This document shows, piece by piece, positions 4,028 to 8,720 of a stretch of 64,000 nucleotides of DNA. This stretch comes from Aspergillus flavus (lineage: Eukaryota > Ascomycota > Eurotiomycetes > Eurotiales > Aspergillaceae): the NCBI RefSeq assembly GCF_009017415.1, contig NC_092410.1:3410001-3474000 (forward strand), written 5' to 3'. The notes below the pieces were generated by a model. That model had not been told where the DNA came from and did no database searches. It saw only the letters and a list, made by a program, of their open reading frames with translations. Every line of letters begins with the position of its first letter. Position 1 is the first letter of the stretch. The translations under genes and the position numbers were made by a program.

Positions 4028-4479
4028 TACTTATCTGATGTCCCGGCGAGCGTGTTTTAAAGTGGCAAGCATTGCTTGAATTCCCTTGATCTACAGCCAT
4101 CATAATTAAACAACACGACCGATACTACTCTAAATTTGCTGGAACAAATATTTATATATTGTTACTCTGCCTTCGAGGAGACCCACGAGACATGATTTAT
4201 GAAAATATATGAGATCTTGAGCCCATATCCCATTTCTCTGAGCAAGACTATCTCAACGCAGGCCCTATATTTTGAGCTTTTGTAGAGAACATTGTAGCTC
4301 AGTGCCATCGTCTCCTTGTGGTGGCAGTCATCCTATAATTGATTGTATTAAGTAGTGGTAGTGCAAACATGAGGCAAAATCGAATACCGTCGTCGGCAAG
4401 CCATCCCGGAATAACAGCCCACAGATCTATAGCAATTTTCTTTATATCCCGAAATATATTTCAATTTCTCACCAATCCG
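4028..4479. other. Intergenic region upstream of tRNA copy 1
   Basis: AT-rich 3' flank of the DUF8035-like gene. Near 4441-4459 there are TATA-like runs about 20-40 bases ahead of the tRNA start. No gene was seen. Confidence 0.5.
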
Positions 4480-4656
4480 AGCATGTTAGCTCAGGGGAAG
4501 AGCGGTAATTTTTCACGTGACCTGCAGAATTTGACCAATAGCTAACGTTTCACAGCCGGGCTCATAACCCGGAGGTACGATTTCACCTCACCAACCAATC
4601 ACAATCCGATTCCTAACGAACAATATAGGTCCCTGGATCGAAACCAGGACATGCTA
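4480..4656 (+). tRNA. Initiator tRNA-Met (CAT) with two mRNA-type introns, copy 1
   Basis: Exons are 4480-4504, 4556-4574 and 4629-4656. Joined, they give a perfect 72-nt tRNA: 7-bp acceptor stem (AGCATGT with ACATGCT), D arm GCTC/GAGC with a 7-nt loop, anticodon arm CCGGG-CTCATAA-CCCGG, variable loop AGGTC, T arm CCTGG-ATCGAAA-CCAGG and discriminator A. Initiator hallmarks are present: A1-U72, three G-C pairs next to the anticodon loop, and A54/A60 in the T loop. Intron 1 (4505-4555, 51 nt) starts GTAATT, has branch-like GCTAAC and ends CACAG; it lies between tRNA positions 26 and 27. Intron 2 (4575-4628, 54 nt) starts GTACGA, has CCTAAC and ends TATAG; it lies between positions 45 and 46. 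Normal nuclear tRNA introns sit at 37/38 and lack such signals. A-box and B-box sequences are intact in exons 1 and 3. An inverted second copy lies at 8546-8720. Confidence 0.88.
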
Positions 4657-4662
4657 AATATC

Positions 4663-4667
4663 TTTTT
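4663..4667 (+). terminator. T5 run 3' of tRNA copy 1
   Basis: A run of five T residues starts 7 nt after the discriminator base, the usual place for an RNA polymerase III terminator. A similar T5 run occurs inside intron 1 (4509-4513), which makes simple polymerase III transcription of the whole gene doubtful. Confidence 0.55.
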
Positions 4668-5915
4668 GGACCCTTAGTAATAAGGGTCCTAGGATTAGAT
4701 GAGGCATTTAACTATATTTTAAATAAGAACAGGGATTAGTTATTCTCTACTAGCTCTTATCCACCTCGGCTTACCAACAATCAGTAGTTTGCTTTAAGCA
4801 TTCCTATATGGCCGGTTGTCATCCAGGCCATAGAGTCCTAGCCTATTACTTTTGGATATAGTCAACCTATGACATTACCGCCTCCAGTCTGGAGCTTTCA
4901 CCTACAGTTTAAAATAGAAGAATATCCCACTTCCCTCCCTACTTTCCAAGTGTATTACAGGCAGAAAAGTTCAGTGTATGGGCTTAGTAGATGTTGTAGC
5001 AACATTAGCGTCACTGCTGAGTCCTGCTCCCTCGCAAATTGCGACCACATTTCTTGTGCTGGGGGCAGTTTCCCACCAGACCGTCCGCGCGACTGAGATT
5101 GAAAATCGAATCTGGTCGCTGGAGCATTTTATCTAGGGACTTGACTCTCCGTATGCATCGGCTATATCTATGTCTTCTCAATTGATTGCCTCCATCCGGT
5201 CGAATAGGCTTGCTTGCCTTGCGGCGTGCTTTTCCAATTTGGGACAGACGACGAGTATCATTCTCTATCGAGCCTTCTTTCACCGGCTAGGTCAATTTCG
5301 TGGGCCGCACACGACTAAGCTGCCAAAAACGATAAAACCCCAAGGGATGTTATACCCTTTGTAAAAGCCCCTGGGGAGAAAGGTCAGTCTGCTCCCCCCT
5401 AGGTAAGCAAGCTCTCAATAAGGATGGGTGTCTGCTGATTATCGCCGGAATGTGAGAGCGTCGTTTCCCCCGTACCATTGATATAAAGTCCTGGAACCTC
5501 TTAAGTGACACTACTGGGATAACTCTGGTCCATGTGTTGTACTATCTTGCAAAGAAGCCTTCAGCATACAAAGATATGTCTACTGGTCGGATATTCATGA
5601 AGATACTAACCCTTTCCAACTTATTGTATAGCTTCTTTGTCTAAGAAGTACTCATGAAACTACAAACTACTAGTAGCGAAAGGACTGGGCTAAATCGGTT
5701 GAAAATCTACAACTTCGCTTGGTTAATATGCTAAATAGACAGATAAGACCCCTTTATATGAGATTCTGTGCAATGAAACTTAGGACAAAGGAATTGATGA
5801 AACACAGAAATGGGTGTTATAAGTTTACACGTACAATGGGCATGATGGACAAGTGGATGTTGATAATGATACCCTGAAAAGTGAATATACAAGGCCGTTG
5901 CTGTCCCTCCTCCCT

Positions 5916-7837: not shown

Positions 7838-8545
7838 GCATGAACAGCCCTCGGTTATGAAATTTGTCTCGGCAAGCGCTGCTCCTCTGGACGAACGGCA
7901 GCCTCTCCTTGTAGAGGGTTTAAGAAGCATTCAATTCGTTTTTAGGCGCTATATGAGTGAAATTGATTAGGGAAGAAGACATCCGTCTAAGATGTAGAAG
8001 AACCAGCCAACGGATCGTACATCTTGAGTAACTCTACATCCTTATATCCTGGTCCACTTGTAAGCTCACGGCGTTGTGGATGCGACAATCATTCTGTTAA
8101 TGGCATCGAGCAAGCATATATGTAGCTTTGCTCTGAAATGTTGCGCCACTTGTTACCCTAGAATCTTAATCCAATACAAAGAAGCTATAATTCTTTTAAG
8201 AATCAGGATTTTAGCTGGTTAGTACGACTACTAGTAGGGATTGGGACTATAGGACTACGGCAACAACGCCGCCAATCCGCAATAATTTAATTTCCTATGT
8301 TCTGAAACTTCTTCTGCCGGCAGAAGTTTACTATACTGAGAGGCTGCTTAAATTGCTTAGTCTCCTTGGTCTGCGTGGTCTAACTAGTCTAATTATATGG
8401 TCATATCATATATGATTGTAATTTGTAAACTACTAAATCAATTAGTTAACTAGAATACTCCCGGAAAAAGAGGTGAAAAAAATTGGGAAATAGAGGACTA
8501 AGCTTGCTACGAGACTCTAATATCGGGTTTATAGAGCAAAAAAGA
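7838..8545. other. AT-rich intergenic region downstream of the GIY-YIG gene
   Basis: No supported gene. The part from about 8160 onward is visibly AT-rich with many short direct repeats such as ACTAGT-like words. The run of A residues at 8538-8543 is the terminator of tRNA copy 2 on the other strand. Confidence 0.45.
8538..8543 (-). terminator. T6 run 3' of tRNA copy 2
   Basis: Read on the minus strand, six T residues start three bases after the discriminator base of tRNA copy 2. This is a good RNA polymerase III terminator. Confidence 0.6.
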
Positions 8546-8720
8546 TAGCATGTCCTGGTTTCGATCCAGGGACCTATTGTTTGTTAGGAATCGTACTATG
8601 ATTGGTTGGTGAGGTGAAATCGTACCTCCGGGTTATGAGCCCGGCTGTGAAACGTTAGCTATTGGTCAAATATGGCAGGTCACGTGAAAAATTACCGCTC
8701 TTCCCCTGAGCTAACATGCT
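8546..8720 (-). tRNA. Initiator tRNA-Met (CAT) with two mRNA-type introns, copy 2
   Basis: On the minus strand exons are 8720-8696, 8644-8626 and 8573-8546. All 72 exon bases are identical to copy 1, so the same complete initiator cloverleaf forms. Intron 1 (8695-8645, 51 nt) differs from its partner by three substitutions, all in the middle. Intron 2 (8625-8574, 52 nt) differs by four substitutions and a 2-nt deletion. Both introns keep GT and AG ends and the GCTAAC or CCTAAC branch-like sites. The T5 run after the first donor is also kept. The 16 or so bases before the tRNA (AATTTCTCACCAA) are shared with copy 1. The gene points toward copy 1 and away from the bZIP gene that begins at 8987. 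Confidence 0.88.

Follow-up and report, generated by a model that had tools for sequence, protein, structure and literature searches.

Introns in nuclear tRNA genes are taught as the work of one endonuclease at position 37/38. These canonical introns, processed by the Sen endonuclease and the Trl1 ligase, interrupt nuclear tRNA genes as the introns described here do. Both kinds coexist in the tRNA-Leu(CAA) genes found in Aspergillus flavus. Unlike the canonical ones, the A. flavus introns studied here lie at 23/24, 25/26, 26/27, 32/33, 33/34 and 45/46. They also present GT-AG borders and a branch box.

Unusual tRNA intron positions, and several introns per gene, have likewise been described in Cyanidioschyzon merolae and in the Guillardia theta nucleomorph (excerpts of PMC4090602 and PMC3978253). 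In C. merolae, the ectopic introns are tied to BHB motifs (excerpt of PMC4090602). Those of G. theta measure 3-24 nt, and many have no defined BHB (excerpts of PMC4090602 and PMC3978253). GT-AG borders are not described in these excerpts, which separates both systems from A. flavus. The fission yeast U6 snRNA gene resembles the present case in holding an mRNA-type intron within a short Pol III RNA gene (excerpt of PMC10484740). However, U6 is part of the spliceosome, and its intron lies by the catalytic bases; the hosts here are tRNAs. In the A. flavus genome, both U6 matches cover the model from end to end, and U6 is therefore intronless in this species. Fungal 18S rRNA genes also present spliceosomal introns in a non-coding RNA, but in rRNA and not in tRNA (a title cited in PMC11782384). 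A tRNA survey of A. niger dropped 14 ARAGORN models with introns longer than 100 nt (excerpt of PMC6108506). The original prediction held that a tRNA dependent on the spliceosome is not an established type. The open-licence literature agrees, with no such report in titles and abstract beginnings among the matches listed, and an earlier report is possible.

The window is the whole stretch of A. flavus DNA analysed here, with a length of 64,000 nt. It contains an initiator tRNA-Met (iMet) gene at 4480-4656, which we call copy 1. Its parts are as follows.

4480..4504, plus strand: exon 1 of iMet copy 1, tRNA positions 1-26, 25 nt
4487-4497, plus strand: A box TAGCTCAGGGG in exon 1
4505..4555, plus strand: intron 1, 51 nt, GTAATT...CTAAC...CAG, at tRNA position 26/27
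4542-4546, plus strand: CTAAC in intron 1
4556..4574, plus strand: exon 2, tRNA positions 27-45, 19 nt, anticodon CAT
4575..4628, plus strand: intron 2, 54 nt, GTACGA...CTAAC...TAG, at tRNA position 45/46
4613-4617, plus strand: CTAAC in intron 2
4629..4656, plus strand: exon 3, tRNA positions 46-73, 28 nt
4635-4645, plus strand: B box GGATCGAAACC in exon 3
4663..4667, plus strand: T5, possible Pol III terminator of copy 1

The best explanation of this locus and its relatives, at a probability of about 0.83, is that tRNA transcripts, probably of Pol III, are matured by the spliceosome. The anatomy agrees in every part with what had been predicted. Removal of 4505-4555 and 4575-4628 leaves a perfect 72-nt cloverleaf, and ARAGORN identifies the joined 72-mer as tRNA-Met(cat). 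The intron positions are indeed 26/27 and 45/46, and both removed pieces have the form GT...CTAAC...AG. The initiator features can be read from the sequence of the 72-mer: A1-U72, no N17, A20, A54, A60 and three G-C pairs by the anticodon. A1-U72 and the three G-C pairs are marks of initiator tRNAs. Likewise, A20, A54, A60 and the absent N17 are given as initiator marks in the literature (excerpt of PMC9362929).

In the unspliced window, neither ARAGORN with usual settings nor Rfam at the gathering score lists a tRNA. When long introns are allowed, ARAGORN finds the ends of copy 1 correctly. The identity is wrong, a tRNA-Glu(ttc) with a 92-nt intron. For intron 2, five borders are compatible with the tRNA alone by our own reading, and GT-AG occurs at only one of them. 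The pattern GT..CTAAC..AG is present in 7 of the 127,880 stretches of 51 nt in the window, and in 5 of the 127,880 stretches of 54 nt, the real introns being counted in. From these window frequencies, the chance of having both pieces at fixed places is about 2e-9, and about 2e-8 with sliding of the border. The predicted structure of the precursor is nothing special (MFE z = -1.08).

Two known intron types do not fit copy 1. Group I and group II introns are far longer than 51-54 nt. Self-splicing of this kind was rejected on length, and no Rfam ribozyme matched; with Rfam matches taken up to E 5 in 4300-4800, the only one is an unrelated lncRNA (E 4.8). A canonical tRNA intron would lie at 37/38, instead of 26/27 and 45/46.

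ORFs lie on either side of copy 1. We tested six of them against Pfam: domains like those of DNA polymerase eta occur in the ORF at 22-1299, and the other five gave no Pfam match. The window also encodes a methylcrotonyl-CoA carboxylase alpha protein. Over 91% of the query, it has 100% identity to two A. flavus records, a match that does not separate A. flavus from A. oryzae.

A second iMet gene, overlooked in the original prediction, is located at 8546-8720 on the minus strand. It has both introns.

8696..8720, minus strand: exon 1 of iMet copy 2
8645..8695, minus strand: intron 1, 51 nt, GTAATT...CTAAC...CAG
8626..8644, minus strand: exon 2
8574..8625, minus strand: intron 2, 52 nt, GTACGA...CTAAC...TAG
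8546..8573, minus strand: exon 3
8538..8543, minus strand: T6, possible Pol III terminator of copy 2

Copies 1 and 2 are inverted and 3.9 kb apart. They form an inverted repeat: its arms of 164 nt have 95% complementarity, and a further 32 nt have 100%.

We searched the genome (37.7 Mb, 8 contigs) with the exons, the spliced 72-mer and the whole iMet gene as queries. These searches score the best candidates only and skip common words, so further iMet copies are possible. The introned family consists of at least seven loci, four intact and three broken. Apart from the two copies of the window, the initiator genes and their relatives are these.

C2, match 5,484,917-5,485,105: intact introned iMet
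C3, 1,828,195-1,828,321: intact introned iMet, with intron 1 only
C4, 2,038,894, 2,039,743 and 2,047,300: three broken introned iMet relatives
C8:891,244: intact intronless initiator gene, tRNA score 60.9 bits
C4:4,342,964: intact intronless initiator gene, tRNA score 61.5 bits
C3:723,054: damaged intronless initiator, 46.7 bits
C4:2,087,343: damaged intronless initiator, no Rfam match at E 0.1

Four broken relatives of the initiator tRNA are found inside 49 kb, at C4:2038894-2087411.

The exons of the four intact introned copies are identical (72/72). Their introns have diverged. Over both introns, the mismatches per pair are 7/103, 9/103 and 16/103; in intron 1, the pairs with the C3 copy show 14/51, 14/51 and 12/51. 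The difference between exon and intron divergence gives Fisher p values from 0.04 to 1e-6, for pairs that are not independent. The flanks are more diverged than the introns, and the exons of the broken copies are altered. These identical exons over diverged introns support selection on a spliced iMet RNA. Intron 2 is exactly absent in the C3 copy and in one broken C4 copy, with the junction AG^GT or its broken counterpart. The predicted interruption of the gene by two introns of spliceosomal type is thus supported by the identical exons over diverged introns, by the exact intron absence in a paralogue and by the other tRNA genes described below.

Several intact intronless genes with the same mature sequence had been named as part of the finding that would refute this prediction. 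None was found in the genome searches, in which the best candidates were scored. On this point the prediction held, but two intact intronless initiators with a different mature sequence do exist (88% identity to the introned iMet). Therefore, the introned genes need not be essential. One could go further and propose that they are dead or dying, and that the two intronless initiators do the work. Their intact sequences at C8:891,244 and C4:4,342,964, together with the broken and damaged relatives listed above, are consistent with this. Nevertheless, we consider it very unlikely. The 72 exon bases are kept in four copies over diverged introns, and it is the broken relatives that display decay. 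Moreover, G10-C25 and C11-G24 are retained in the introned form; at these two pairs, the intronless initiators (L059 and L060) carry A-T and T-A. These A-T and T-A pairs may weaken the A box of the intronless genes. Finally, no intron-free Leu(CAA) gene was matched in the genome search.

The stems were also compared between the introned iMet and the two intronless initiators. On both sides, 5 of the 21 stem pairs are changed, and all 63 cells are paired (three sequences). With these three sequences, 0 of 500 shuffles were as high for paired cells, likewise for the covariation score, and 174 of 500 were as high for the number of pair types.

Other tRNA genes present introns of the same form. 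The strongest case is tRNA-Leu(CAA). Three genes (L096, L097 and L098) lie at C1 5,832,660-5,833,929, in the region C1:5832483-5833978, and share an identical mature sequence of 81 nt. Their GT-AG introns measure 54, 59 and 56 nt. The position is 23/24 in one gene and 25/26 in two; the borders are 2 nt apart, and the product is the same. The pairwise likeness of these introns is 49%, 45% and 50%; shuffled sequences reached at most 42%, 46% and 46%, so two of the three pairs are above. An ordinary intron at 37/38, 29-30 nt long, is present in each gene as well (60-80% alike). When one Leu(CAA) gene was used to search the genome, with the best candidates scored, the matches fell at these three loci only. 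It follows that no copy was found that escapes both intron removals.

A tRNA-Arg(TCT) gene, L172, is located at C1:2,665,606-2,665,735 (region C1:2665475-2665770). It has a 59-nt intron, GTAAGT...CACAG, at 33/34, and no 37/38 intron. Conversely, L200 holds two further Arg(TCT) genes in which the intron is an ordinary one of 11 nt at 37/38, and GT-AG introns are absent. What first drew attention to the Leu(CAA) genes was the pairing of their acceptor stem; for Arg(TCT), it was the odd location of the intron called by ARAGORN. Thus, they were not picked by GT-AG. The candidate tRNA-Leu(TAG) L139, at C6:3,350,942-3,351,096 (region C6:3350755-3351145), was first flagged by a splice scan. It contains a 63-nt insert, GT...CTAAC...AAG, at 32/33, and probably carries the same intron type. 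It is the weakest of the nine genes, with a 5' site GTTCGT, a 3' site AAG and four tRNA-like choices, including the chosen one. A second Leu(TAG) gene without a GT-AG intron exists, and ARAGORN calls a tRNA-Leu(tag) at L015. A chance reading is unlikely because of the anatomy, the spliced form conserved over diverged introns and this recurrence in other tRNA genes.

In total, the nine genes have 12 such introns. All of them are GT-AG, and 11 of the 12 end in YAG. The branch box is CTAAC in ten, TTAAC in one and CTAAT in one. Its A lies 10-14 nt before the 3' end, in a search that allowed 3-28. The iMet 5' splice sites are GTAATT, without the common G5. The introns are 51-63 nt long. In the related species A. 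nidulans, the median length of mRNA introns is 59 bp, with the 5' consensus GTRAGT (printed as GTRAAGT) and YAG in 90% (excerpt of PMC4046813). The predicted likeness in length to mRNA introns is therefore supported by comparison with a relative. We also looked for mRNA introns in the window, with criteria that proved too strict: three came out, and this survey was dropped.

Alternatively, the tRNA splicing endonuclease might remove these introns by cutting at atypical places, as in red algae and nucleomorphs. This would agree with the ectopic tRNA introns of Cyanidioschyzon and Guillardia (excerpt of PMC4090602), and the Arg(TCT) intron is cut in a loop closed by a 5-bp anticodon stem. A strict junction helix of 1-3 of 4 pairs can be drawn in the eight introns tested. 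Three ordinary 37/38 introns give 2-3 of 4, and the two groups are not separated. Since the helix test does not discriminate, the intron position and the signals decide. The endonuclease mechanism asks for no GT, no CTAAC-like box at 10-14 nt and no AG, and all 12 introns have them. In addition, the three ordinary introns show an anticodon-stem geometry across the cut, which the iMet sites do not have. We consider endonuclease removal highly improbable and favor the spliceosome.

The exons of iMet keep the A and B boxes. T-runs of 5-11 start 2-10 nt behind all nine introned tRNA genes. A T-run behind the gene is typical of Pol III genes. Both observations point to Pol III. In each of the four intact iMet copies, intron 1 also contains a T5 (4509-4513 in copy 1). 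This run is possibly a partial Pol III stop; the own terminator of copy 1 is also only T5. The motif CACGTGA (4514-4520 in copy 1) is kept in 5 of 5 aligned intron-1 sequences, one of them from a broken copy. Splicing has no need of it, and perhaps it is a promoter element. A figure legend describes CACGTG as a promoter motif in A. nidulans (excerpt of PMC4046813). Because of the T5 in intron 1 and the kept CACGTGA, Pol II or mixed transcription has to be weighed. More precisely, Pol II could transcribe the introned genes, with splicing as in mRNA, and RNase P and RNase Z would then trim out the tRNA. The exonic boxes and the T-runs right behind the nine genes argue against it, and we judge it unlikely.

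With Pol III as the preferred polymerase, the following path can be proposed from the sequences. The iMet loci would be functional genes for initiator tRNA-Met. Pol III is their most likely polymerase, given an A box in exon 1, a B box in exon 3 and a T-run behind. The precursor would carry two U2-type spliceosomal introns. The spliceosome would cut them at the GT-AG borders through the CTAAC branch, and the pieces of 25, 19 and 28 nt would give the 72-nt tRNA, for use in translation. The same route may serve the Leu(CAA) genes found, one Arg(TCT) and probably one Leu(TAG). In Leu(CAA), the tRNA splicing endonuclease and the ligase would also have to remove the ordinary 37/38 intron. We regard it as somewhat probable that these introns form a new class of nuclear tRNA introns. 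In such a class, the spliceosome would regularly mature Pol III transcripts of at least four isoacceptors and share the Leu(CAA) molecules with the Sen endonuclease. The supply of initiator and the decoding of UUG would then be tied to spliceosome activity.

If the spliceosome matures the initiator tRNA and Leu(CAA), mRNA splicing would be linked with the start of translation in a common mould. It would also mean that real tRNA genes escape the standard tRNA finders. Likewise, intron gain in structural RNAs could be studied directly, through presence and absence in paralogues and the 2-nt sliding.

The survey for extra introns started from 235 B-box places in the genome, 84 with GGTTCGAWTCC and 151 further ones. 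Of these, 32 fall inside 63 Rfam hits and were left out. We took in all 74 regions outside Rfam hits from the first list and 48 of the 123 merged further ones, leaving out 75; the last 8 of the 48 were treated with ARAGORN only. Allowing introns up to 120, ARAGORN made a call in 36 of the 74 first regions, and some calls were odd. The final splice-aware scan covered 30 regions: 24 missed by ARAGORN and 6 odd calls picked by eye. The 24 came from a set of 91 distinct B-box places, from which any with fewer than 4 T-stem pairs had been dropped. The six included L172 and L139, whose introns were already suspected. The scan matched in 9 of the 30 regions, four of them iMet copies known before. Block-shuffled controls were positive in 2 of 900. 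In seven of the nine genes, other GT-AG choices are also tRNA-like in fold (for example, a tRNA-Val for iMet), and agreement with paralogues decided among them. The introned tRNA genes counted here are a minimum.

A scan for relatives in a virus collection gave 0. A scan of prokaryote genomes gave two loci, both rejected because a bacterial tRNA had been joined by chance to a word nearby. In A. flavus, L175, L177 and L197 look by eye like ordinary tRNAs whose canonical introns ARAGORN misread.
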